A stretch of 52,609 nt of DNA. It comes from Spirochaetaceae bacterium. Lineage in GTDB: Bacteria; Spirochaetota; Spirochaetia; Treponematales; Rectinemataceae. The notes beneath the pieces are model-generated. The model was not told the origin of the DNA. It worked only from the letters and a program-made list of their open reading frames with translations, and searched no databases. This document shows positions 8,477 to 52,609 of the stretch, in pieces; position 1 is the stretch's first letter, and each line of letters opens with the position of its first letter. The stretch lies in contig JAOABY010000010.1 of assembly GCA_026418115.1 (NCBI GenBank), positions 1 to 52,609 of the forward strand. The letters run 5' to 3'. The translations under genes and the position numbers were made by a program.

Positions 8477-10353
8477 CTATTGTAGCCTGAGAATGATTTT
8501 TGTGCCAGCAGCCACAGGCGTGCCGGGAGCAGGATCCTGTTCTACAACATAGCCCTCGCCTTCAAGTGCAACATCGAGATCATCACGCAGCAGCAGAGGC
8601 AGGAGCTGACGCTTCGAGTAGCCCCGCAGGTCAGGCATGGTAGTGCCGATGACTGCGGCTGGAGGCTCAGTCAAACGCACCACCCCATCATGCGACACAT
8701 TCTGGCTCTTGCCCCGCGGCAGACCAAGAATGCGCAGGGCGGCCTCCGCTGCTTCGCGCAGAAGGGGAGCAGCAATTTTGCCACCCAGGTAGGAAGCTCC
8801 CCTCGGCTTCACGATGGCGACATAGATGGCAAGCCGAGGGTTGTCCGCTGGCAGTACGCCCAGAGTGCTCGCAATGTAGTCCGTCTCCGAATATGCTTTG
8901 GTCTGGGGATCGATCATCTGGGCAGTACCTGTTTTCCTGCCATGCGCACATCAGGCACCTTCGCCCGCCAGCCCGTACCATCCAGGCTTGCAGCGGATTC
9001 CATTGCCGTAAGAATTGCGCGGGATGTATCGGCACTGATGACTCGCCGCAAGGCCGTGGGCCGATGCTCAAAACGAACCACCCCATCCTGAGAGGCAATC
9101 TTCTTCACTGTTGCAGGCTTCAGCAAGACACCACCATTGGCTACCGCTGCGGCTGCGTTCATCATCTGAAGAGCTGTCACCCTGATTTCCTGTCCGATGG
9201 CAACAGTGGGCTTTGTGCGGCCGGACCACTGCTCAGGCTTCCTGATCATGCCAGGGCTCTCGCCGATCGAGCCCATGCCCGTCTTCTGGCCGAAACCGAA
9301 CTCAGTCAGTCGCCGGTACAGCTCGGCTTCGGAAATCCGGTCCGAGGCATAGCCCACGCCTGCATTGCAGCTGTTGGCCAGAATCTGGGAGAGATTCTGT
9401 GTGCCATGGTTATGGAGACACTTGATGACTATACTCTGTCCCGAAGGAAGCACCTTTCTGTAGGCTCCATCGCAGGTAAAGGTGGTCTGGGGCGTAATCA
9501 GGCCCATGTCCAGAATTGAAGCCATCGAGAAAACCTTGAACACGCTGCCTGGTTCATACGTGTAGATCGAGAGCCTGTCCTGGCGCTGCAGGTCGGTAAA
9601 TACTCCGAATGCATTCGGATCAAAATCTGGCATCTGCACATATGCCAGAAGCTCACCCGTATTTACATCAATTGCCGTAATGAAGACTGCCTCAGCCTGG
9701 TGTTCCGTCCACGCATTCCGCGCAAGTTTCTCCAGCGCATATTGAAGCGTTGCATCTATGGTGAGATAGACATCATTGCCAGCCGCATCCCCCTCACTGC
9801 CGGCGAGTTCTCTCTCATACTGCAATTCTATGCCTTCCAGTCCGCGGTTGCCCTCTCCCGTGAAACCGATAAGGTGAGAAGCGAGCCTTCCTTCCGGATA
9901 CATTCTTCCGCTTACTTCATCGACGATGATGCCTGGGAACTTGCCTTCCTCCACCTGCTCGCGCAGCGTCGCAGTCTTTTCACTGTCCATCCTTCGTGCG
10001 AGGTAGACGAAATTTGCGGAACTGTTCTTTACTTTCTGAATGACGGCCGCTGGATCAAGTCCGAGCAGCGAGGCAACTTCGCGAAGTTCCTGCTCGCCGC
10101 CCGTGGCATCAAGCTCGCTCCTGCTGACGGCCACATCATATTTCGGTACATCAAAGGCCAGAACCTTGCCATTTCTGTCAAGAATCTTGCCACGTTCCAC
10201 CGGTACGCGCCGCACTTCAGCAACAGTACCCGGCTGCAGCATCATGAGGTACGCAAAACGGGCCAGCACAGCCAGGGCCATGAGGCCGAGCAGTGCCATG
10301 GCCAGCCGCAATCTGATCTGATTCTGTGAAGCTGCCTCTTTCATGTCGTTCAC
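8477..10353 (-). CDS. ftsI: Penicillin-binding protein (FtsI/SpoVD type) with PASTA domain, frameshifted at the KTG motif
   Basis: A class B transpeptidase that cross-links septal peptidoglycan. It starts with GTG at 10353, overlapping the lepB stop as GTGA (an ATG nine bases further is possible). One membrane helix (MALLGLMALAVLARFAYLMML) is followed by the PBP dimerisation domain, the SVFK active-site box (GSVFK), the SCN box, and a C-terminal PASTA domain ending GTKIILRLQ. The frame breaks exactly at the KTG box: the first frame (8914-10353) ends AGKQVLPR-stop. The second frame (8477-8917) continues from the expected TGTAQ into MIDPQTKAYSE. One extra A in the A4 run at 8932-8935 (minus strand) restores GKTGTAQMIDP. 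It may be a sequencing error, a real mutation, or a slip site. Confidence 0.85.
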
Positions 10354-10808
10354 CTGCGCGGAACAATAATCCCCAGCACATCATCAAGGCGTACCGGTCC
10401 GAACTGTCGTGAGTCTACGGATTCTATTGCATTATCTCCCAGCAGGAACAGAGTGAGCGTGTTGCCCTCCTCCCGTACCTCGGCAATTCTCTTGATCACA
10501 GGAACCCCCGTATCTGGTCGACGTGCAGCAACCACATGGCCGGATTGAGGATTATTCCACCTGACAAGATACTGATTCCCGAATCTCAGCCCATAGAATG
10601 CACGCACTACCAGTACTACCTGGCCATTCCGATAGTGCGGCAGCATGGATTTCCCTTCTACAATGGCAGCATCGAGTATGAAGAAGCGCACCACCACTGC
10701 ACACGCGACAGCGAACGCTATGGGCACCAGCGGGCTTGCGGATGCAGTACGTCCTGAAGACCGTGTCCTGCGACTGCGCAAGGATTCCATCCAACGTTGA
10801 AATTTCAT
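10350..10808 (-). CDS. lepB: Signal peptidase I
   Basis: Leader peptidase that removes signal peptides at the outer face of the inner membrane. The start MKFQRWMESLR at 10808 gives 152 residues. One membrane helix (LVPIAFAVACAVVVRFFIL) precedes the catalytic Ser in EGKSMLPHYRNG. The catalytic Lys is in VIKRIAEV, and the conserved GDN..SxDSR.FG box follows (LGDNAIESVDSRQFGPV). The protein is short, as in Gram-positive and spirochaetal forms. It overlaps ftsI by 4 nt, so the two are translationally coupled. It diverges from the M23 peptidase gene across only 47 nt. Confidence 0.93.
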   Translation of the reverse strand: MKFQRWMESLRSRRTRSSGRTASASPLVPIAFAVACAVVVRFFILDAAIVEGKSMLPHYRNGQVVLVVRAFYGLRFGNQYLVRWNNPQSGHVVAARRPDTGVPVIKRIAEVREEGNTLTLFLLGDNAIESVDSRQFGPVRLDDVLGIIVPRR

Positions 10809-10817
10809 GCAGGCATC

Positions 10818-10845
10818 TAAATTATCGGCTTGATTCTGCCGATAC
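10818..10845 (+). promoter_or_regulatory. Sigma-28-like promoter and inverted repeat between lepB and the M23 gene
   Basis: TAAA (10818-10821), 16 nt, then GCCGATAC (10838-10845) resembles the FliA/sigma-28 consensus TAAA-N15-GCCGATAA, with one extra spacer base. The same stretch is an inverted repeat, TATCGGC (10823-10829) with GCCGATA (10838-10844), so an exact GCCGATAA also appears on the minus strand facing lepB, but without a matching TAAA. It could be a promoter, an operator, or both. Confidence 0.4.
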
Positions 10846-10855
10846 AAGAGGAGCC

Positions 10856-12142
10856 ATGGCACGAATCGCATCCGATGACGAAGTCCTGCTCGAAGAGCAT
10901 GCTCCTCTGCGTGCCCCACTTGTTTCTGTTCTTTCCGGTGAAGAGTTCACGCAGACTGCACGAAAGAGACCCCGCCCTGCTTTCCATCAGAGGAGTATTC
11001 GTCCGGAAAAAGATGCGCCGACCGCACGATCTGCGCACAGCCATGCTACCGCTCTGCCCAGAAATTTCAGAGTCGAGCCATTCGTGCCGTCCTACGAGGC
11101 ATCGGGCATCGAGCCCGATGGGGTGAGAACAGACTCCAGAACTGAACATCGTACAGAATCCGGAGGCAGCAGGGCTGCCACGCACTCACCGGAGTTCCAC
11201 ATCAGGCTCCCGTGGGCGCTTGCACTTGCAGGCGGCATAGGCCTGGCCATCATTGCTCTGGCAGCCGCGATGATCCTCAGTTCCCATGCAGTATTCCCCT
11301 CCTCAGCCCGCAACCTCGTACTTCCCAATGAGGACTCCATCCAGGAAGCACTCATGGCAATCATCGAGCCCGATCCACCGGAGCATCAGGAGAATGTGCC
11401 GCTTCCACCGCTGCCCCCCGTCCTGGCAGAAAGGACCTACACAGTACGCAGGGGCGACAGTCTCCAGTCGATAGCACGGCGCTTTGGCCTGCGTGAGGAT
11501 ACGATCATCGCTGCGAACAATCTCCGGTCCCAGGACCAGCTCAGGAGCGGCCTGGTGCTCAAGATCCCCAACATGAATGGCATCTACCACTCAGTCCGCA
11601 GAAACGAGAACCTCAGCACCATAGCACGCGCGTACGGGGTCACCATCGAGCAGATCGCCGACATCAACAACATCAGCTCGGCGAACATCCAGGCTGGCCA
11701 GCGCCTCTTCATACCCAATGCGAGGCTTTCTTCCTCCATAATGAGCAGCTTCTATGGTACCACGTTCATCTGGCCTGCCCGGGGTCCGATATCCTCGCCG
11801 TTCGGCTACAGATCAAACCCATTCTCGGGAACGAGAACCTTCCACTCGGCAATTGACATTGTGCTGCATCGAGGCACGCCGGTCAAAGCGACGAGGGCTG
11901 GTACCGTTGCCGATACCGGCTACAATGCCGTGTTTGGCAACTATGTCATCCTGCGCCATGGTGAAGGGTATCAATCTCTCTATGCTCATCTCGACCAGAT
12001 TCTGGTAAAGAAAGGTGCCGAGGTTGCACAGGGAACGCTGATAGGCCATTCAGGCAATACGGGACAGAGCACCGGACCGCACCTGCACTTCAGTCTCTTC
12101 CGAAATGGACAGGCATTGGATCCTCTGAAAGTTTTGCGATAG
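10856..12142 (+). CDS. LysM-domain M23 metallopeptidase
   Basis: A membrane-anchored peptidoglycan endopeptidase of the LytM/NlpD class, 428 residues. The ATG at 10856 is chosen because AGAGGAG lies just upstream and the longer frame would overlap lepB. A charged N-terminal cytoplasmic stretch (1-120) is followed by one membrane helix (ALAGGIGLAIIALAAAMIL). Then come two LysM domains (YTVRRGDSLQSIARRFG and YHSVRRNENLSTIARAYG) and a C-terminal M23 domain. Zinc ligands are present: HSAID (HxxxD) and HLHF (HxH), so it should be catalytically active rather than a NlpD-like activator. It is divergent from lepB-ftsI, which fits a role in wall turnover during growth or division. Confidence 0.9.
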   Translation: MARIASDDEVLLEEHAPLRAPLVSVLSGEEFTQTARKRPRPAFHQRSIRPEKDAPTARSAHSHATALPRNFRVEPFVPSYEASGIEPDGVRTDSRTEHRTESGGSRAATHSPEFHIRLPWALALAGGIGLAIIALAAAMILSSHAVFPSSARNLVLPNEDSIQEALMAIIEPDPPEHQENVPLPPLPPVLAERTYTVRRGDSLQSIARRFGLREDTIIAANNLRSQDQLRSGLVLKIPNMNGIYHSVRRNENLSTIARAYGVTIEQIADINNISSANIQAGQRLFIPNARLSSSIMSSFYGTTFIWPARGPISSPFGYRSNPFSGTRTFHSAIDIVLHRGTPVKATRAGTVADTGYNAVFGNYVILRHGEGYQSLYAHLDQILVKKGAEVAQGTLIGHSGNTGQSTGPHLHFSLFRNGQALDPLKVLR

Positions 12143-12368
12143 AGTTCAGCATGATGATGCTGGGGTGAAGGACCCCGCCCGCACAACGCCGAATCATGGC
12201 GATGTGGGGAGCATATTCTGTCATCTTTTTCATACACGCCCATGCGCCTTCTGTATGAATATGTAGACACAAATCCGTATTATCCTGGAGCGAACCACAC
12301 AGTATCAGCGAATTTAATTTATTTCAATATAATATTTTAAATTTATAAACTTTCTTGCTGGCATTTTC
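12143..12368. other. Intergenic region with AT-rich block upstream of the sigma-54 promoter
   Basis: No gene is seen. A short hairpin GGGGT/ACCCC follows the M23 stop without a T-run. Bases about 12305-12355 are strongly AT-rich, with tracts such as TTTATTTCAATAT (12318-12330). This could bend DNA or bind IHF between an enhancer protein and the sigma-54 promoter (inference). Confidence 0.5.
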
Positions 12369-12384
12369 TGGCACGATCCTTGCT
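12369..12384 (+). promoter_or_regulatory. Sigma-54 (-24/-12) promoter
   Basis: TGGCACG-ATCC-TTGCT matches the RpoN consensus TGGCACG-N4-TTGCW at every position. The GG of the -24 element and the GC of the -12 element are 10 nt apart, as required. The transcript should start near 12395, 20 nt before the ATG of the sigma factor gene, leaving room for the GAAGGAGG ribosome binding site. Confidence 0.85.
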
Positions 12385-12414
12385 TATTTCCTTGTGGAGA
12401 GAAGGAGGATCTAC

Positions 12415-13242
12415 ATGCGGACCTGTACAGCTGAAGAAAGCCTTGCATCGTACTTTGAGACCATACGGTCATATCCCATGGCAGACAGGGACGAGGAGCA
12501 GGAACTCGCAGCGCGCATCAGGAAAGGAGACCGTCATGCGCAGCAGCGTCTCATCGAGGCGAACCTGCGCCTTGTAGTCTGCATCGCCAATGCCATGTGG
12601 ACACCGCCTCACTCTCTGCTGGATCTCATACAGGAAGGGAATATCGGCCTTCTGAAGGCAGTCGAGAAATTCGATGGTACGAGAAACGTAAAGTTCTCGA
12701 CCTATGCGGCATGGTGGATCAGACAGTCCATCAGGCGCGCCCTTATCAACACGGGAAGGCACATCAGGCTCCCGCATCGCAAGGATGAAGCGCTTCGCAG
12801 AATGAACGGAGTCCGCGCCAGACTCAGCCAGCAGTTCTCCCGCCAGCCCACCCAGCATGAGCTTGCGGAGGAGCTCGGCATATCACCAGGCGATGTGGAA
12901 ATGCTCATGTCACTGTCCGAAATGCCGCTCGAACTCGAACCGGTGGAGCATGATGCATTGAGCTGGATTGATACGTTTGAGGACTGGCGCTTCAATCCCG
13001 AGCATGAATTCGTACGTTCTGTCGAAGCGCAACAGGCTGAGCACCTCCTTGCCTCGCTCGAGCCACGCGAGCGTGTCGTCATGGAGCGCCGGACCGGCCT
13101 GAAGACAGGCAGGAAGGAATCTCTCAAGGCAACGGCCTCCGTCATTGGATGTTCCGCTGAAACCGTGCGCCACATCGAACGACGCGCCCGTGCATCCATG
13201 GCAGAGACGGCACGACGTCTCGGCCTCGCCATCTGTGCATGA
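12415..13242 (+). CDS. Sigma-70 family RNA polymerase sigma factor (RpoS/RpoD-like)
   Basis: A 275-residue primary-like sigma factor without region 1.1. The ATG at 12415 has GAAGGAGG upstream and fits the predicted transcript start. Region 1.2 ([20 protein letters not shown]), region 2 with [24 protein letters not shown] and the -10-recognition helix [17 protein letters not shown], region 3 ([19 protein letters not shown]) and region 4 ([26 protein letters not shown]) are all present. Region 4 is somewhat divergent from RpoD. Its size and make-up fit a group 2/RpoS-like factor, but RpoH-like or another alternative factor is possible. Expression through sigma-54 suggests a stress or lifestyle switch. 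Confidence 0.88.
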
Positions 13243-43398: not shown

Positions 43399-44844
43399 TT
43401 ACTGGATTCTGAGATTCATGATTGCCACCAACTTTCTGAACAGATCGGTGTTGTCGTAGTATCCTGCGAACATTTCCTGGCCGACACCTTTGGCAAACAC
43501 GGGGACGGGGACACCTGTGTGTGAGTAGCTAGTCCAGCCGATACCTGCCATCTGATTCAGAATCTGTGTCAGCTTGACGGTGAGTGGCTCATAGCCGCCA
43601 TACAGAAGGTACTCTTCTTCCTTGATCGAGCGCTCCACCTCATTTCCCATTGTGCGTTTGAATGCCCGCTCGATCTGTTCACGCTGTAGCTGACTGAGGC
43701 TATTCACATCAATGCCGAATGCCTGCCTGATGGCAGGAGCCAGATCTTCAAGTTTCGCCTTGTCCTTAGGAGTAGAAGCCTTGTAGGGATTGATCACTTT
43801 TTCATTGAACGCCACATAGGACATGGTCTGCGGTGCAATCTTGTCAAAGAAAGTCTCATAATGGGTACCGGCAAAACCAATTGCCATGCCACCTGTTTCA
43901 TGATCCCCCGTCACCAGTACAAGGGTTTCCTGAGGATGCTTTTCAGCAAACGAGAGCGCGACACGAACAGCCTCATCGAAGGCGAGCGTATCGCGAATGG
44001 CGCTCGCTGCATCATTGGCATGGCATGCCCAGTCGATCTTGCCGCCCTCCACGAAGATGAAGAAGCCTTCGGGACTGTTCTGCAGAAGTTCCACGCCTTT
44101 TCTGACGAAATCGGCGAGACCCAGTTCGCCGGGTTCTCTGTCTATGTCGTATTTCATGGCAGAAGAGTCCTGCAGCACCGGGCTGATGGCGATAACCTTG
44201 CCTGCTCCAGATTTGAGATTGTCGATTGCTGCCTTTGTATTTGCAATCGTGTACCCTCTTGCCGCCGCGAGCTCGTACACGCTGGTTTTATCTTTGTTCT
44301 TGCCAGTGGGCTGTACGAATCCGCCACCGCCGAAATAATCGAAATTGCTCGTGGTGAGCTGTACTGCGATTTCGTAATAGTTGCCTCGTGATGGCGACTT
44401 CGCGTACATAGATGCGGGAGTCGCATGATCGATCGAGACAGAGGATATGACACCGATTTTCCGTCCCTGCTCTTTCGCATATTCCGCTATGGTTTTGTAT
44501 GTCTTTGTCTTGCCGGGATCCATGTTGATCACGCCATTCAAGGTCTTGTTGCCTGATGCGAAGGCAGTTCCTGCCGAAGCAGAATCAGTGATCAGCGATC
44601 CGGCATCATAGGTTGTACAGAGGCCGGTAACCGGAAGCTGTGAAAATGCAAGACGCTTGACAGATACATCCCTGGAGCTCAGCGCATTCGCGAAAGCTTC
44701 CGTTGCCATGATCTGAGGCATGGCCAGACCGTCTCCGACAAAAAAGAACACGTACTTCGCAGTGCCTGCAGCGAATGCGCTGCCAGCCAAAGCCAGCAGC
44801 ATCAATGCTGCCAATACTCTCCTCAAGATAGCTCTGTGCTGCAT
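43399..44844 (-). CDS. phoA: Alkaline phosphatase
   Basis: An exported metal-dependent phosphomonoesterase, 481 residues, with a signal peptide (VLAALMLLALAGSAFA). The start at 44844 has AAGGAGG upstream. Active-site features are all visible: metal Asp in VGDGLAMPQ, nucleophile Ser in LITDSASAGTA, DHATPAS, the KIDWACHAND block, VTGDHETGG and the final His in YSHTGVPVPVF. It would act in the periplasm to release phosphate. No Pho box was recognised in the 219-nt divergent upstream region. Confidence 0.95.
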   Translation of the reverse strand: MQHRAILRRVLAALMLLALAGSAFAAGTAKYVFFFVGDGLAMPQIMATEAFANALSSRDVSVKRLAFSQLPVTGLCTTYDAGSLITDSASAGTAFASGNKTLNGVINMDPGKTKTYKTIAEYAKEQGRKIGVISSVSIDHATPASMYAKSPSRGNYYEIAVQLTTSNFDYFGGGGFVQPTGKNKDKTSVYELAAARGYTIANTKAAIDNLKSGAGKVIAISPVLQDSSAMKYDIDREPGELGLADFVRKGVELLQNSPEGFFIFVEGGKIDWACHANDAASAIRDTLAFDEAVRVALSFAEKHPQETLVLVTGDHETGGMAIGFAGTHYETFFDKIAPQTMSYVAFNEKVINPYKASTPKDKAKLEDLAPAIRQAFGIDVNSLSQLQREQIERAFKRTMGNEVERSIKEEEYLLYGGYEPLTVKLTQILNQMAGIGWTSYSHTGVPVPVFAKGVGQEMFAGYYDNTDLFRKLVAIMNLRIQ

Positions 44845-45063
44845 TTACAGCCCTCCTTGATAAAAGGTGGCTGCAGTATCCAGCCCGACTGCGAAACAAT
44901 TTTGAGAATTCAATGAACTTTCAATGAAAAAGAACATACTGGCCGCTTGAACCGAAGGGCACAATATGCCCCTCATTCTGCCTGACATGTGCCAGCCCTT
45001 GCTTTCCTCAGTATGAAGACGTACTATGTACACCAATAACGCATTCTGGAAGGTAGCACGCTC

Positions 45064-46389
45064 ATGACACTGGCTGAAAAACTGGCTGCGCTGGTACAGT
45101 TCAAGACTGTCTCATTCTTTGACGCGTCACTTGAAGACGACAGCCAGTTTGCGGGTTTGCTTGCCACTCTGCCAGAGCTCTTCCCTGTTCTTCATTCTCA
45201 TGCTGAGCGCATGGTCCTTGGAGACCGGGCAGTCCTGTACAGACTCGAAGGCAGCGATCCAACGCAGAAGCCTGTTGTGCTCTGTGCGCACTTTGATGTT
45301 GTGCCTGCTCAGGATACCCATCTCTGGGACGAAGAACCCTTTGGCGGAGCAGTCCGGGATGGCTATCTCTATGGGCGTGGTACCCAGGATATCAAAGTGC
45401 AGATGACCTGCCAGATGGAAGCGCTTGAACATCTGCTTGCATCTGGAAAGGTTTTCAGTCGCACGATCTATCTGGCCTATGGCGGAGATGAGGAGATTGG
45501 CGGAGTACGAGGAGCTGCACGCATCGCTGCATGGTTGGAAGCACAAGGCATTCGCGCTGCCATGCTGCTCGATGAAGGAAGCCCGGTTGCCGATGGCATC
45601 ATAGGGTTTGTCCAGCAGCCCCTGGCACTGATTGGTGTAGCGGAAAAGGGGTATATGGATGTAATTCTCGAGGCACGTGGCAAAGGTGGTCATGCTTCCA
45701 TGCCTCCTCACCATACTGCGCTTGGCGTACTCGCACGCGCCATCGTGGAGATAGAAGAGCATCCCTTCCCCGCAAAGCTTACCAGAACGACAAGGGAATT
45801 TCTTGATGCTCTTGCCAGGCTTTCCCGCTCTCCCTACCGGTTGATTTTCCGCTTCCGGAATCTGCTGGCGCCTCTCATTCTGCAGGCATTCACACGGATG
45901 CCTTCAACCAATGCTCTGATCAGAACCACCTGTGCTCCCACGATGGCATCGGCAAGCCAGAAGGAGAATGTGCTACCTGACATCGCACGTGCCGTCATCA
46001 ATGTCCGCATCATGCCGGGCGAGACATCACGGGAAGTGCTGGAAAGGCTCAATTCCCTGACCGCTCGGCATGGTGTGTCGGTGCATGTTTCAGCTCCCGA
46101 ATATGTCATAGAGCCATCGGCGGAATCGTCTACTTCTTCCGAAGGCTGGCGCATGCTCGTCCGGGCTCTGGCCATTTCGCACCCCGAAGCATCCGCGGTA
46201 CCTTTCCTGTTCACTGCAGGCACCGATACCAAGCACTACCACAAGATCGCCGATGATATCTATCGTTTCACACCACTGATACAGACACCTGCTGACCTCA
46301 ATGGGGTCCACAACATCAATGAGCGTGTCTCTCTGTCCAATCTCGAACGATGCATGCGTTTCTACATGAGCCTGCTTGAACAGTGCTGA
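45064..46389 (+). CDS. M20 family metallopeptidase (PM20D1/carboxypeptidase S-like)
   Basis: A 441-residue M20 peptidase. The ATG at 45064 has GGAAGG upstream, 11 nt away. Metal and catalytic residues are in VVLCAHFDVVPA (HxD), YGRGTQDIK (catalytic Asp/metal), YGGDEEIGG (Glu pair) and the late GTDTKHY His. The lid domain lies at about 190-330 (EKGYMDVILEARGKGGHASMP). No signal peptide is present, so it is cytoplasmic. It probably cleaves N-acyl or C-terminal residues from peptides. Confidence 0.92.
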   Translation: MTLAEKLAALVQFKTVSFFDASLEDDSQFAGLLATLPELFPVLHSHAERMVLGDRAVLYRLEGSDPTQKPVVLCAHFDVVPAQDTHLWDEEPFGGAVRDGYLYGRGTQDIKVQMTCQMEALEHLLASGKVFSRTIYLAYGGDEEIGGVRGAARIAAWLEAQGIRAAMLLDEGSPVADGIIGFVQQPLALIGVAEKGYMDVILEARGKGGHASMPPHHTALGVLARAIVEIEEHPFPAKLTRTTREFLDALARLSRSPYRLIFRFRNLLAPLILQAFTRMPSTNALIRTTCAPTMASASQKENVLPDIARAVINVRIMPGETSREVLERLNSLTARHGVSVHVSAPEYVIEPSAESSTSSEGWRMLVRALAISHPEASAVPFLFTAGTDTKHYHKIADDIYRFTPLIQTPADLNGVHNINERVSLSNLERCMRFYMSLLEQC

Positions 46390-46421
46390 AAGCATCCTCT
46401 GGAGCCTGCCGCCTCTCTAAG

Positions 46422-46450
46422 TTGCCGATCCGGCGCAGGCGTACTATATT
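46422..46450 (+). promoter_or_regulatory. Promoter of the DOMON gene, probably leaderless
   Basis: TTGCCG (46422-46427), exactly 17 nt, then TATATT (46445-46450). A start 7 nt after the -10 box falls on 46457, the A of the ATG. No ribosome binding site is present. Confidence 0.7.
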
Positions 46451-46456
46451 TTCAGT

Positions 46457-46999
46457 ATGAAAGTCAGAAGTACAGTAATGGTCGTGCTGTTCTTGGTGGC
46501 TTCAACCGCATTTGCGGTCGATGTGGATGGGAGGATTGGCACAGGCGAATATGCCAGGGAGGCGAGTTTCGACAACGGCAATTTCAAAGTTTTCTGGACC
46601 ATCGATCAGGACAGAATCTTCATGGCCCTCGATGTCAAGGCGAATGGATGGATTTCGATTGGTTTTGAGCCATCGAGAGTCATGGCAGATGCCGATATGA
46701 TTTTCGGCATGGTCCCACCATCAGGCCCAGTGGAAGCTATTGATGCATTTTCTACGGGAACCTTTGGGCCGCACCCGCCAGATGCAAATCTGGGCGGTAA
46801 AAATGACGTCTTGCAGTTCGCGGGAACCAGGAACGGGGACCGGATCATATTCGAGTTCGTCCGTCTGCTCGACACCGGCGACAGGTATGACAAGAAGATC
46901 CCAGCCACAGGCAAACTGAAGATTATCTGGGCGTATGGCCCGAACTTCACCTTTAGCGCAAAGCATCTCAAGGCTGGGGCGGAGACACTGGATCTGTAG
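46457..46999 (+). CDS. Exported DOMON-domain protein
   Basis: A 180-residue protein with a signal peptide (VMVVLFLVASTAFA) followed by one DOMON domain. The domain shows FKVFWTIDQDRIFMALDVKANGW-type strands, then WISIGFEPS and IIFEFVRLLDTGD, consistent with a haem- or sugar-binding beta sandwich. Sequence after the start gives a short mature protein without other domains. It stands alone between the M20 peptidase and the CRISPR locus, with its own promoter. Ligand is unknown; periplasmic redox or binding function is likely for the family. Confidence 0.85.
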   Translation: MKVRSTVMVVLFLVASTAFAVDVDGRIGTGEYAREASFDNGNFKVFWTIDQDRIFMALDVKANGWISIGFEPSRVMADADMIFGMVPPSGPVEAIDAFSTGTFGPHPPDANLGGKNDVLQFAGTRNGDRIIFEFVRLLDTGDRYDKKIPATGKLKIIWAYGPNFTFSAKHLKAGAETLDL

Positions 47000-47079
47000 A
47001 GACTGACTCTTAGGTTTCTGAAAGCTGTGGCCCATCGTACGAGATCGAGTATGCTTAAAATTTGAAATTGATACCAACT

Positions 47080-47173
47080 AAAAAAGAAGAGGCCGTCCCG
47101 TAGGGCGGCCTTCTTTCATCTGGTGGCTCCAAGAGCCGTGTTGGCGGGTGCTGATCCCATTTCTTGGTAAGCT
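47080..47173 (-). ncRNA. tracrRNA of the type II-C CRISPR-Cas9 system
   Basis: Minus-strand RNA of about 94 nt. From the predicted start (47173) it reads AGCTTACCAAGAAATGGG and continues as an anti-repeat to 47140; compared with the array repeat it has a substitution and small insertions (ATGGGATC for ATGAGATC, AGCACCCGCC for AGCCCGC). A nexus hairpin follows (GGCTC-TTG-GAGCC, 47137-47125), then a bulged terminator stem (47114-47086) and a run of six U (47085-47080). This order is the normal tracrRNA plan: anti-repeat, nexus, 3' hairpin. It pairs with the array transcript and guides RNase III processing and Cas9 loading. It lies divergent to cas9. Confidence 0.9.
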
Positions 47174-47189
47174 GATATCATGATAAAAT
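47161..47189 (+). promoter_or_regulatory. Candidate cas9 promoter, overlapping the tracrRNA promoter
   Basis: TAAAAT (47184-47189) has a poor TTCTTG (47161-47166) 17 nt upstream, within the anti-repeat sequence. The start would be near 47196. Its -10 box overlaps the tracrRNA -10 box by two bases. Confidence 0.35.
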
Positions 47190-47208
47190 GTGATGGAGAG
47201 TTCGTCAA
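47180..47208 (-). promoter_or_regulatory. Sigma-70 promoter of tracrRNA
   Basis: On the minus strand TTGACG (47208-47203) and TATCAT (47185-47180) are spaced by exactly 17 nt. The start near 47173 coincides with the first anti-repeat base. Confidence 0.8.
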
Positions 47209-47227
47209 GAATCATTTTATAAAATGG
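47183..47227. repeat. Inverted repeat and palindrome in the cas9 leader
   Basis: ATAAAATG (47183-47190) is repeated inverted as CATTTTAT (47213-47220), and the second copy is part of the 12-bp perfect palindrome ATTTTATAAAAT (47214-47225). The elements flank the tracrRNA -35 box and end at the cas9 ribosome binding site. Confidence 0.6.
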
Positions 47228-47235
47228 AGGCCTGT

Positions 47236-50200
47236 ATGGTGCGTTTTGCATTCGACATTGGAACGAATTCCATTGGCTGGGCTGTTCTGGAGCCAAACGA
47301 AGATGACTCCAAAGTAGAAATTCTTGACATGGGAGTCAGAATTTTCAGCGATGGCAGAGAACCGTCTAAATCAGGTCAGCCAGGTGAGCCACTCAATCAG
47401 ACTCGTCGCCAGAAGCGAATGATGCGAAGACAGCTTGAACGAAAAAAACGTCGCAAAAAGGCCATGTATAATTTTCTGATTCGCTCTGGGTATGCACCAG
47501 CAGACGCAGATGCGCATAACAAATGGGTAATGCTTGATCCCTACAGGCTCAGGGCTGAGGCGCTGATTCGGCCACTTGATAAACTGGAACTGGGAAGAGT
47601 CATGATGCAATTGGCTGCCCGAAGGGGTTTCAAATCGAACAGAAAAACTGATACTGGCAAGGATGCTTCAGAATACAAGCAAAAGATAAGTGCTTTCGAA
47701 CAGGAATTAGGAAACCGTACCCTTGGGCAGTACCTGTGGCAGAAAAAGCAGGCAATAGAAGCGTCATTCAGAAAGAGCAATGATTCTCAACCTGCCGTTG
47801 TCAATGAGAGAGTGAGGTTCAGACCTGGAACTTCCTACTATCCCAATAGAGCAATGTATGAATATGAATTTCATGCTATTCAGTCGGTCCAGGCGAATGC
47901 GCATCCGGATTTTGACTGGGGCAAGGCGTATAGGATTATTTTCTTCCAGCGCCCATTAAAAAGGCCTCAACGTGGTTACTGCACTTTTTTTGAAAATGAA
48001 TATCGCGCCTACCTTGCCCAGCCCTCAGCTCAAATCTTCAAAGCACTTCAGGATATCAATAATCTCGAGTACTCGATCGATCATCCTGTTGAACTTACTG
48101 CTGAACAGAAGAAGGTTATCTTTTCCTATCTTCAGCAGAAAGGCTCTATTTCGTTCAACAAGGTGCGCAGTCTGCTCGGGTTGCCAGATGAAGCTGTCTT
48201 TAATCTGGAAAAAGGCACCAAGGATAAGCTGGAAGGAAGTACCACCGATATTCAATTTGCAAAATATATTAAGCAATGGCTGAACATTGATCTAGCGGAC
48301 CGGGATACCCTCGTTGAGACCTTCATAGTTGAGGAAAATGAAGACTATATTCTAGAGGTCTTCAAGCGCTTCGGTATAACAGACACAGAAACAAAACAAG
48401 CCATTGAAAAAATAGACCTTATGGTCGGAGTCGGATCGCTTTCAGCGAGGTTCATGCGGGAATGTTCGGCCATAATGAGTGCTGAGTGGATAAAATATGA
48501 TAAAGCAGTAGAAAAAATGGGATTCCATCATTACGGCACCATGAAGAGCGACGTATACGAAAAACTCCCCTATTATGGCCAGGTATTGAAATATGCTACC
48601 ATTCCGCCTGCCAGATCGAACCAGCACAATCTTACTGGAGGTGCGGCAGAAGAAGCGCAATATGGGAAAATTTCCAACCCCACAGTGCATATTGCGTTGA
48701 ACCAATTGAGAAAACTGTGCAATAAGCTCATTGAAAAACATCATAATAAACCTGACGAAATAGTGGTTGAGGTGGCAACTGAACTCAAACTGGGCAGAGA
48801 GAAAATAAGACAGATCATTCAGGAACAGAACAAAAACAGAAAAGAAAATGAGGATATCAAGGCCGTAATAAGAAATATTCTACAGATCCCTGATGGAATT
48901 GAAATAAGCAGTACAGATGTGCTCAAGTTCCGTTTGTGGAAAGAGCTCGGCACTAATTCTGCAGCCAGACATTGCATGTATTGTGGCAATGTCATAAGCG
49001 CACATCAGCTTTTCAATGGAGAAGCGGAGATCGAGCATATCCTGCCCTTTTCCAGGACACTGCGCAACAATCGCAATAATCTGACGATAGCACACAAGAA
49101 ATGTAATGCAGCAAAGGGAAATAGAACGCCTTATGAGGCATTTGGCCATAGCCCGCCAGGTTATGCATGGAGCGAAATTGAAGCCCGTGTTATGGATGTT
49201 TTCAAATATAATTTTGCAAAGAAAAACAACTTCCTGAAAAAAGACCTGGAACAGGAATTAGCTGTAGATAGCAAATTTCTTGAAAGCCAGCTGACGGATA
49301 CTGCATTTATTGCCAAAGCAACCAGAGAATTCCTGGCCTGTCTCTATCCTTCAAGCAATGGGTTACCATCACCTGCGGTTCGAGTTGTTCCTGGCAGGCT
49401 GACCTCTCTGCTTCGCTCGAAATGGGGTCTGAATGATATTTTAAGCTCACAGTATGACGAAAAAAACAGAGCTGACCACAGACATCACGCTATTGATGCG
49501 CTGGTAATCGGGCTTACGACTAGAAGCATCCTGCAGCGATTTGCAACCGCAAATGCACGTGGCTATTCTGATCGGATTCTTCCTCCCCAGTTGCCCATCA
49601 ACAGATTGCAGCTGGAACAGAAATTGCAGAACATGCTGATTTCAATCAAGCCTGAGCATGGGCTCGGCGGCGGCCTGTTTGATGAGACTGCATATGGGTT
49701 TGATTATTCACCTGAGGATCCAGATAACAAGCCAAAGGAATTCTTTGTCCGCAAGCCAGTAGAATCGCTTACATGGAATATCATCGATGCAGATCTCATA
49801 GTAAGCCCGCAGACTCGTTCGAGAATCAATGCATTCCTTAATGAACGTAACCTGAACTCTAAAAATTCTAATAATGACAACAAGAAACTTGCGACGGCAA
49901 TGCAGGAATTCAGTTCTCTGACAGGAATCAAGGCTGTACGAATCAGAGCCAAGAATTCAGAAGGTTACAAACTGCTTCTCCCTGGCAGAAATGGCAGGAG
50001 AGGTCACAAGGCATATCCCCAAGGTGATATCCTGTTTGTTGATATCTGGAGAATTCCACAAAAAGGGGGCAAGGAATATTCATTCAAGGGAGTATATGTA
50101 TGCAGAGCTGATGTTCACACGCAGAAGGGCGAATTTCATACAGAACGACCTCACCCGGCAGCAAAATTCATGATGAGATTATTCAAGAACGATATATTGG

Positions 50201-50469
50201 CACTGGAATTCCCTGATAGAACAGTATTAGCAAGGATCGCAGGTTTTAGTACAACAAATGACAGAATCGACCTGCGCCCCTTGCATGCCAGTGGTGATAT
50301 CAAAACCTGGATCGAACAGACCAACAGCAGATATCGGGACCCCTTCTGGAAGCCAATCAATTCATTGCAGAACTTCATATCTCTTGATGTTCTTGTAAAG
50401 AAAAACAAAGACATGCAGATAAAACATGTGCATATAAGTATAGATGGTAGGCTAATATGCCGAAAATAG
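47236..50469 (+). CDS. cas9: CRISPR-associated endonuclease Cas9, type II-C
   Basis: RNA-guided DNA endonuclease of 1077 residues, the compact type II-C size. The ATG at 47236 is preferred over 47224 because GGAGG (47226-47230) sits inside the longer frame, 5 nt before it. RuvC-I has the catalytic Asp7 in FDIGTNSIGWAVLE. The Arg-rich bridge helix is TRRQKRMMRRQLERKKRRKK. RuvC-II carries Glu in EIVVEVATELK (about 510). The HNH domain (about 578-635) has CMYCGN, EIEHILPFSRT (catalytic His) and NNLTIAHKKCNAAKGN. RuvC-III has DHRHHAIDALVIGL (about 750). The PAM-interacting domain is the last 250 residues. All catalytic residues are present, so it should be active. Confidence 0.98.
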   Translation: MVRFAFDIGTNSIGWAVLEPNEDDSKVEILDMGVRIFSDGREPSKSGQPGEPLNQTRRQKRMMRRQLERKKRRKKAMYNFLIRSGYAPADADAHNKWVMLDPYRLRAEALIRPLDKLELGRVMMQLAARRGFKSNRKTDTGKDASEYKQKISAFEQELGNRTLGQYLWQKKQAIEASFRKSNDSQPAVVNERVRFRPGTSYYPNRAMYEYEFHAIQSVQANAHPDFDWGKAYRIIFFQRPLKRPQRGYCTFFENEYRAYLAQPSAQIFKALQDINNLEYSIDHPVELTAEQKKVIFSYLQQKGSISFNKVRSLLGLPDEAVFNLEKGTKDKLEGSTTDIQFAKYIKQWLNIDLADRDTLVETFIVEENEDYILEVFKRFGITDTETKQAIEKIDLMVGVGSLSARFMRECSAIMSAEWIKYDKAVEKMGFHHYGTMKSDVYEKLPYYGQVLKYATIPPARSNQHNLTGGAAEEAQYGKISNPTVHIALNQLRKLCNKLIEKHHNKPDEIVVEVATELKLGREKIRQIIQEQNKNRKENEDIKAVIRNILQIPDGIEISSTDVLKFRLWKELGTNSAARHCMYCGNVISAHQLFNGEAEIEHILPFSRTLRNNRNNLTIAHKKCNAAKGNRTPYEAFGHSPPGYAWSEIEARVMDVFKYNFAKKNNFLKKDLEQELAVDSKFLESQLTDTAFIAKATREFLACLYPSSNGLPSPAVRVVPGRLTSLLRSKWGLNDILSSQYDEKNRADHRHHAIDALVIGLTTRSILQRFATANARGYSDRILPPQLPINRLQLEQKLQNMLISIKPEHGLGGGLFDETAYGFDYSPEDPDNKPKEFFVRKPVESLTWNIIDADLIVSPQTRSRINAFLNERNLNSKNSNNDNKKLATAMQEFSSLTGIKAVRIRAKNSEGYKLLLPGRNGRRGHKAYPQGDILFVDIWRIPQKGGKEYSFKGVYVCRADVHTQKGEFHTERPHPAAKFMMRLFKNDILALEFPDRTVLARIAGFSTTNDRIDLRPLHASGDIKTWIEQTNSRYRDPFWKPINSLQNFISLDVLVKKNKDMQIKHVHISIDGRLICRK

Positions 50470-50473
50470 AAAT

Positions 50474-51403
50474 GTGATTGGTGGCGTTGTCGAGATTGCT
50501 GAATCAGATCGCTGCCTCAGGACTGAGCGTGGTTTTCTGGTCGTAGAATCGACAGGAAAGGATCGCTCAGTCCTTGCACAAATAGATTATGATCAATTTG
50601 ATGCTCTTATCTGTTCCAACACAGGTTTTCTGATAACCGGTCCTCTTCTGGCAATGCTGGCCGAGAAGAATAAATTCTTTATTGTATGTGGCCGCAATTA
50701 CAATCCTTTGGCTGTTTTAGTCCCGCTGAGCGATAATTTTGAAAGTATTCGAAGAATACAAAGTCAGTTGCATGCCAGCCTGCCTTTAAAGAAAAGATTA
50801 TGGCAGAAACTGGTTCAGGAAAAACTGAGAAATCAGGCAGCCCTACTCTTTTCAATCGGAAAGGAAGAGACCGCTACTAAAATTGAACATCTGGCATTCA
50901 AGGTTCTTTCGGGCGACTCGGATAACAAGGAGGCATACGCTGCAAGGTTGTATTGGCCTGCTCTCTTTGGCAACACCTTTTTACGTTCCAATGAAGAGGA
51001 TCCTGTTAATGCATTTCTGAATTATGGATATGCTATTCTGAGGAGTTGCATCTGCAGAGCGATTGTCGGGTACGGTCTTCTGACGATGTTTGGCGTGCAT
51101 CATGCAAATCTTAGAAACTATTTTGCTTTAGCTGATGATATTCTGGAGCCTTTTCGCCCTCTAGTAGACCGTTGTGTCTATAGTCTTATTCAAACAGGTA
51201 AATCAAACCTTGATCCGGATGCAAAAAGGATCTTATGCAGCCTGTTGATTCAGGATGTAGCTATGGAAGGCCAAACCATGCCGTTGACCAATGCAATACG
51301 GCACACTGTAGGAACACTGGTTTTATCATATGAGCAGAAGAAGGTATTGCTATGCCTTCCCGGAATCATGGACAGAAAGCCAAGACTCATGAAGAATTCC
51401 TAA
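50474..51403 (+). CDS. cas1: CRISPR-associated integrase Cas1
   Basis: Spacer-integrase subunit, 309 residues. It starts with GTG at 50474, 4 nt after the cas9 stop, without a clear ribosome binding site, so it is likely translated by coupling. The N-terminal beta domain (GGVVEIAESDRCLRTERGFL) precedes the helical catalytic domain, with Glu in NKEAYAARLYWPALFG, His in TMFGVHHANLRNYF and Asp/Glu in ADDILEPFRPLVD. These are the expected metal ligands. With Cas2 it inserts new 30-bp spacers. Confidence 0.96.
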   Translation: MIGGVVEIAESDRCLRTERGFLVVESTGKDRSVLAQIDYDQFDALICSNTGFLITGPLLAMLAEKNKFFIVCGRNYNPLAVLVPLSDNFESIRRIQSQLHASLPLKKRLWQKLVQEKLRNQAALLFSIGKEETATKIEHLAFKVLSGDSDNKEAYAARLYWPALFGNTFLRSNEEDPVNAFLNYGYAILRSCICRAIVGYGLLTMFGVHHANLRNYFALADDILEPFRPLVDRCVYSLIQTGKSNLDPDAKRILCSLLIQDVAMEGQTMPLTNAIRHTVGTLVLSYEQKKVLLCLPGIMDRKPRLMKNS

Positions 51404-51723
51404 GCGGATATAGGCTTATGTGGGCTATTGTCATTTTCGATCTGCCAGTAATTACAAAAGCGGATAGAAAAGAAGCCTCAAAATTCCGAAAGGACCTGCT
51501 GGACAAGGGCTTTCAGATGGTACAGCTTTCTGTGTATTTCAAGCTTCTTTCAGGTGTTGAAGAACTGGAGACCATCGAAAGATACATAGAAAGTATCTTG
51601 CCCAGGAAAGGAAAGGTTGAGATAATTCATATTACAGACAGGCAGTATGAAGATATTAAGAGTTTTTATGGAAATGTTCGAGAATCGCCGAAAAAATCCT
51701 ACACGCAACTCCAACTTTTCTAG
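51352..51723 (+). CDS. cas2: CRISPR-associated protein Cas2
   Basis: Structural partner of Cas1 in spacer integration, 123 residues. It overlaps the end of cas1 by 52 nt; the ATG at 51352 keeps the conserved GYRLMWAIVIFDLPV start, which extends upstream of the alternative Met in RLMW (51418), so the longer start is favoured. The ferredoxin-like fold shows KFRKDLLDKGFQMVQLSVYFK and KVEIIHITDRQYEDI. The end (YTQLQLF) is typical of type II Cas2. No cas4 or csn2 follows, which supports subtype II-C. Confidence 0.95.
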   Translation: MPSRNHGQKAKTHEEFLSGYRLMWAIVIFDLPVITKADRKEASKFRKDLLDKGFQMVQLSVYFKLLSGVEELETIERYIESILPRKGKVEIIHITDRQYEDIKSFYGNVRESPKKSYTQLQLF

Positions 51724-51740
51724 TCAAAGACCATTTTCTC

Positions 51741-51791
51741 AGTGCAGAGACCCTGTTAAATCGTTTCAGAATAACAGATTGTCTCTGCACT
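51741..51791. repeat. Nested inverted repeat touching the CRISPR array
   Basis: AGTGCAGAGAC (51741-51751) pairs with GTCTCTGCACT (51781-51791) as a perfect 11-bp stem; inside it CTGTTA (51753-51758) pairs with TAACAG (51772-51777). The right arm ends on the base before the first repeat. It is at the trailer end if the array is read on the minus strand. There is no T-run. Confidence 0.8.
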
Positions 51792-52609
51792 AATTCAGCT
51801 TACCAAGAAATGAGATCAGCCCGCAACACCTTACAGACTTGTCAAGAATAATTTTCAAATTCAGCTTACCAAGAAATGAGATCAGCCCGCAACGCGAGCA
51901 TATAAACACGTTTCTCATCCGGTAATTCAGCTTACCAAGAAATGAGATCAGCCCGCAACCGATCATCCGCATCAGCCACAGAAACAGCAAATTCAGCTTA
52001 CCAAGAAATGAGATCAGCCCGCAACGAAACAGTTTCAGGACAAGCCGTGACAGCAAATTCAGCTTACCAAGAAATGAGATCAGCCCGCAACCCGAGCCGT
52101 TATCGACTACCACCATGTCGGAATTCAGCTTACCAAGAAATGAGATCAGCCCGCAACCCGCAGAGGACGCTTTTTTTCGCCTTGACGAATTCAGCTTACC
52201 AAGAAATGAGATCAGCCCGCAACTGCCGCCTATTGTCAGTTTAACTTCAAGCTAATTCAGCTTACCAAGAAATGAGATCAGCCCGCAACAAGGCCGCGCT
52301 GTGGAAGATCCTCGATGCGAATTCAGCTTACCAAGAAATGAGATCAGCCCGCAACTCACCATGCAGTCTTGGAATCAGCGTGTATAATTCAGCTTACCAA
52401 GAAATGAGATCAGCCCGCAACTGAGCTTGCGGAGCGAAATCGACAACTTGAAATTCAGCTTACCAAGAAATGAGATCAGCCCGCAACCAAGATCCAGCAC
52501 AGCGAGCTGATCGTCGAAATTCAGCTTACCAAGAAATGAGATCAGCCCGCAACGCCACCCCTCGGCCACTCAACGAGGCTGAGAATTCAGCTTACCAAGA
52601 AATGAGATC
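51792..52609 (-). CRISPR. CRISPR array, 13 repeats (last partial), type II-C
   Basis: Thirteen copies of a 36-nt repeat start every 66 nt from 51792 (51792, 51858, 51924 and so on to 52584); the last is cut by the window end after 26 nt. On the plus strand the repeat begins AATTCAGCTTACC and ends ATCAGCCCGCAAC; the crRNA strand begins GTTGCGGG. All twelve spacers are exactly 30 nt and all complete repeats are identical. The tracrRNA strand implies that pre-crRNA is made from the minus strand, so the leader and newest spacers lie to the right of the window. Several spacers (for example 52290-52319) look like coding sequence of phage type, but sources are unknown. Confidence 0.97.

Follow-up and report, generated by a model that had tools for sequence, protein, structure and literature searches.

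A probable type II-C CRISPR-Cas9 locus with a divergent compact Cas9 and phage-matching spacers in an uncultured spirochaete

The genes and repeats at positions 47080-52609 of the window, i.e. of the whole 52,609-nt stretch of DNA analysed here, raise the question whether an uncultured spirochaete possesses a functional CRISPR-Cas9 immune system, and of which subtype. The sequence-only reading had described a complete, apparently functional type II-C locus in a probable spirochaete. With respect to the host, the evidence supports this: the assembly (2.17 Mb, 96% complete; contig C11 ends at position 52609) shares its order with Treponema sp. JC4, T. berlinense and further genomes, which puts the host in the GTDB order of Treponema but in another family. 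The tracrRNA gene (minus strand), cas9, cas1, cas2 and the repeat array were all recovered at the coordinates assigned earlier (Table 1). We consider it very probable that they form a working type II-C adaptive immune system, and we infer this function from intact genes, a perfectly matching phage protospacer and a repeat and anti-repeat that co-vary in a congener.

Table 1. Positions of the features of the CRISPR-Cas9 locus in the window
Feature	Position	Strand	Description
tracrRNA	47082..47174	-	anti-repeat, nexus-like hairpin, terminator hairpin, U-tract; transcript ends inferred
terminator hairpin	47110-47091	-	followed by U-tract, ends in TCTTCTTTTTT; fold z -3.4
nexus-like hairpin	47137-47125	-	GGCTC-TTG-GAGCC
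anti-repeat	47174-47140	-	upstream of cas9; 26 nt match the repeat at 25/26, inverted
tracrRNA promoter	47208-47180	-	TTGACG (47208-47203), 17-nt spacer, TATCAT (47185-47180); 10/12 consensus matches
cas9	47236..50469	+	1077 aa; TIGR01865 546.6 bits (cut-off 100); HNH_4 and RuvC_III matches
cas1	50474..51403	+	309 aa, GTG start, type II; TIGR03639 260.8 bits (cut-off 120); PADLOC Cas1_II
cas2	51352..51723	+	123 aa; TIGR01573 63.2 bits (cut-off 24.5); PADLOC Cas2_II; solved Cas2 relatives
hairpin	51741..51791		51 nt, between cas2 and first repeat, abuts the repeat exactly; 11-bp perfect outer stem and inner stem
CRISPR array	51792..52609	-	12 complete repeats of 36 nt alternating with 12 spacers of 30 nt; 13th repeat partial
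spacer 4	52026..52055	-	30/30 to portal gene (PHROGs portal) of IMGVR_UViG_3300002219_000211; 3' flank GTAATATCC
spacer 9	52356..52385	-	28/30 to HNH endonuclease gene of phage contig L171; 3' flank GCACTCGAG
spacer 10	52422..52451	-	28/30 in phage contig L263, ORF 10262-10648; 3' flank CTATTAAGG

All three protein-coding genes are intact and lie on the plus strand, the start of cas2 overlapping the 3' end of cas1, and the array reads in the opposite direction. For cas9, an in-frame ATG at 47224 would extend the protein to 1081 aa, and a GGAGG motif sits just upstream of the start at 47236. The sequence-only reading had credited this compact enzyme with every RuvC and HNH catalytic residue, and all of them are indeed present (D7, E512, H751 and D754 for RuvC; E600, H601 and N624 for HNH). 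Among 81 aligned Cas9 proteins these positions are invariant, except that position 600 is either E or D. The presence of type II cas1 and cas2 genes was likewise borne out by family profiles above their cut-offs and by PADLOC; Cas1 can be aligned to the solved Cas1 4zkj, and its putative active-site residues are E153, H210 and D222. In addition, the HNH domain carries a CxxC and an HxxC motif (C580, C583, H620 and C623; about 48973-49104), a putative zinc site. Both motifs occur together in 35 of the 81 aligned proteins (29 spirochaete and six proteobacterial rows), and throughout the alignment C583 and C623 are either both present or both absent. In the alignment of PDB sequences, the CxxC set of the window is absent from ThermoCas9 or GeoCas9. 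These residues likely represent a lineage-specific zinc site.

The tracrRNA had been read as having its own promoter and terminator, and both were found, next to an anti-repeat (Table 1). The predicted duplex of repeat and anti-repeat reaches -55.0 kcal/mol, compared with a minimum of -33.3 kcal/mol among 300 random 60-mers of the window. Rfam gave no match within the window. With the anti-repeat on the minus strand, the array and its crRNAs are assigned to that strand as well, running toward cas2, and the crRNA-sense repeat is GTTGCGGGCTGATCTCATTTCTTGGTAAGCTGAATT. The array is as uniform as had been noted, with 12 exactly identical repeats at a spacing of 66 nt (51792-52553) and all 12 spacers exactly 30 nt long. 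The locus was less complete than claimed in one respect: all listed parts are present, but the contig stops at 52609, inside the 13th repeat of the array (52584-52609), and no further repeat exists anywhere in the 2.17-Mb assembly, so that the array lacks its distal end. The cas2-proximal end is regarded as the acquisition end, since cas-distal repeats are degenerate in many relatives; judged from these degenerate repeats, the locus fits the type II-C trait of acquisition at the 3' end of an array transcribed toward that end. Two published accounts of II-C polarity agree with cas2-proximal acquisition (PMC12080349, PMC12638026).

Among nine other congeners searched, a relative of this Cas9 was detectable in a single genome, G006. 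Since only this congener has such a relative, and among different neighbour genes, within this genus the locus has been acquired, relocated or lost. The sister locus (L025) resembles that of the window in gene order, in its similar repeat, in its conserved tracrRNA and in a promoter with a TTGACA / TATCAT-like arrangement, and its Cas9 is 63% identical. It differs in a truncated cas2, in the lack of a long array-side hairpin, in its chromosomal neighbours and in having no spacers in common with the window. Repeat and anti-repeat have changed in concert (AAATGAGATC:AAATGGGATC in the window, AAATGGAATC:AAATGGAATC in G006), which suggests that their pairing has been maintained. At positions 9600-9760 of the sister locus, cas2 has lost its C-terminal half and runs straight into the array, leaving about 30 nt that resemble a spacer. 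This looks like a deletion reaching from cas2 into the array, and the sister locus has probably lost acquisition, unless the assembly is in error.

Three of the 12 visible spacers match phage sequences, one of them perfectly (Table 1). Spacer 4 is also found at 29/30 in a related phage, and the phage targeted by spacer 9, which was found by fetching relatives of the spacer 4 phage, belongs to the same family. Shuffled spacers, scanned as a control against the first 1.04 Mb of the fetched loci, gave no match of at least 23/30. Spacers 2, 7 and 8 gave seed matches in IMG/VR, none of which was full-length. No match was found among GenBank phages and plasmids, and no convincing prophage target in 30 genomes of the family and 394 of the order, where weak matches, such as that of a congener spacer to a pyruvate dehydrogenase gene (26/30), were put down to chance. 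The spacers of G006 had no target among the fetched phages. Matching spacers to phages had been proposed as a way to predict the PAM, and this succeeded in part: three of 12 spacers could be used, and their 3' flanks agree only at +3 (A) and +5 (T), where at least two agreeing positions among eight are expected by chance with a probability of about 0.09. The resulting motif, NNANT, is tentative. The repeat starts with GTTGC, which has a T in the +3 position and a C in the +5 position and therefore would not match NNANT, as self-avoidance requires. The phage contigs L166 and L169-L172 are IMG/VR fragments of tailed phages, their portal proteins sharing 88-94% identity with that of L166. This phage family probably parasitizes the host of the window, and because the portal protein has only distant matches (25-27%) in spirochaete genomes, it is the spacers alone that link the two. 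They tie an uncultured spirochaete to a family of tailed phages in IMG/VR.

With cas9 carrying RuvC and HNH residues, a complementary tracrRNA, type II cas1 and cas2 and a repeat array, the locus has the traits of type II, and the assignment to subtype II-C made from the sequence is supported as well. The gene order is cas9-cas1-cas2, the Cas1 and Cas2 profiles are those of type II, and neither csn2 nor cas4 could be seen in the ORFs of 44000-52609; a search of the genome with the csn2 profile PF09711 gave no match, with the positive controls likewise silent. The PDB sequences nearest to the Cas9 are ThermoCas9, GeoCas9 and NmeCas9, all of type II-C, whose systems share with the window a dual-RNA guide and, as far as the ORFs show, the lack of csn2. 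An AlphaFold2 model built from 81 sequences (pLDDT 84.6, pTM 0.75; a model from only 11 sequences was poor, with a pLDDT of 58.7) superimposes on Nme1Cas9 over 907 residues (Z 27.1, 4.1 A, 24% identity) and on ThermoCas9 over 855 residues (Z 26.7, 27% identity), with the same domain order. St1Cas9, a type II-A enzyme, ties in Z (27.5; 5.8 A, 22% identity), and the fold by itself therefore cannot fix the subtype. In a FastTree phylogeny of 91 Cas9 proteins, the window Cas9 groups with that of G006 (support 100), then with those of two Spirochaetota loci (99) and then with a Treponema (99), within a spirochaete clade of 29 rows (99) that adjoins Cas9 proteins of Pseudomonadota and Nitrospinota. 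This single-method tree includes no named II-A or II-B references and its outgroup does not fall on one side of a branch, so it establishes kinship and not the root. The alternative, a locus of a different subtype (II-A, II-B or II-D) or no CRISPR system at all, would be in line with this composition of the tree and with a match to the NCBIfam Cas9d model, albeit a weak one at 153 bits versus a cut-off of 375. Against this, csn2 and cas4 are unseen at the locus, the protein has 1077 aa, its best solved relatives are II-C enzymes, and it groups within a clade in which most of the sampled loci carry an anti-repeat ahead of cas9 and, behind the genes, an array oriented as in the window; we regard such an assignment as extremely improbable. 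The Treponema II-C loci (T. berlinense, T. socranskii, Treponema sp. JC4) share with the window the spirochaete Cas9 clade, an opposite-strand anti-repeat preceding cas9, a downstream array read toward the cas genes, the CCHC zinc-site candidate in HNH and a hairpin at the acquisition end. They differ in a Cas9 about 33-41% identical, in another repeat and in a near-consensus promoter within the repeat.

This last difference bears on whether the II-C locus is still in use. The repeats of the Treponema relatives contain TTGACA or TTGACC, 16 nt and TATAAT, i.e. 11-12 of 12 consensus bases, and the same repeat positions in the window read CTGATC and TGAATT (3/6 each, 6/12 in total). Together with the loss of the C-terminal half of cas2 in G006, this degenerate repeat promoter would fit a decaying or silent locus with intact genes and an array that has stopped being transcribed or acquiring spacers. 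The repeat-embedded promoter is degenerate in G006, too, and many other sampled II-C repeats show none. Moreover, all genes of the window are open, all catalytic residues are there, the repeats are 100% identical, the congener shares a conserved tracrRNA and tracrRNA promoter, and a sampled phage still offers a perfect match to one spacer, which makes decay or silence very improbable. In a working type II-C system, as known from the family, the tracrRNA transcribed from its own promoter would pair with the repeat part of the crRNA, and the two RNAs are able to pair here and differ in concert between the congeners. The duplex would be loaded into Cas9, which would cut phage DNA beside a 3' PAM, provisionally NNANT; the matched spacers derive from phage genes. 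Cas1-Cas2, the genes of which are intact like all other parts, would insert new 30-bp spacers at the cas2-proximal end, beside the hairpin.

The comparison of loci raises a testable question about this hairpin at the acquisition end. In the window it is a single-copy element of the genome with a fold z of -4.65 and -7.1. Within the 60 nt beside the first cas-side repeat, z falls below -2 relative to shuffled sequences in 45 of 58 II-C loci, as compared to seven of 41 at the distal end (Fisher p 3e-9). Forty loci have a strong stem, at most 2 nt away from the repeat in 17 of them, and in most of these 40 a T-rich sequence follows on the crRNA strand, in the manner of an array terminator. The ordinary explanation is a terminator between two convergent transcription units. 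A pure intrinsic terminator was not accepted for the hairpin of the window, as neither strand has a U-tract. Since the window and the loci L082 and L102 retain the stem with no U-tract, and since the stem is so close to the repeat in the 17 cases mentioned, the hairpin might instead serve II-C loci as a structural element that does more than terminate transcripts, such as marking the site of Cas1-Cas2 integration or shielding the 3' terminus of the newest crRNA, a reading we consider unlikely. The sequence of the hairpin is specific to each locus across the II-C loci compared. PMC12080349 treats hairpins and terminators at the opposite, upstream end of arrays, and within the literature covered, which was partial, we found no report of a hairpin at the cas2-proximal array end.

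The locus is an ordinary, very probably functional type II-C system in which nothing departs from the type, and what is new about it is chiefly its distant Cas9 sequence. In the alignment of Cas9 proteins the closest relative found is 63% identical and all others reach at most 46%, and the Cas9 as a single query against genome and viral contig collections found no related locus. The special interest expected of such a compact Cas9 is modest, as type II-C is already common in the phylum, although so divergent an enzyme does merit a PAM assay. The PAMs reported for NmeCas9, GeoCas9 and ThermoCas9 (NNNNGATT, NNNNCRAA and NNNNCNR, respectively) differ from the tentative NNANT. Even close II-C enzymes differ in PAM, according to PMC9433092. 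As a divergent compact Cas9 that comes with a cognate tracrRNA, a provisional PAM and phage targets already identified, the enzyme is directly testable. Elsewhere in the same order, the genome G042 (locus L029) encodes a 1271-aa Cas9 and a short ORF, followed downstream, at 10580-12762, by two ORFs of 330 and 397 aa, the latter with likely membrane helices; cas1 and cas2 were not recognised among the ORFs listed for this stretch.
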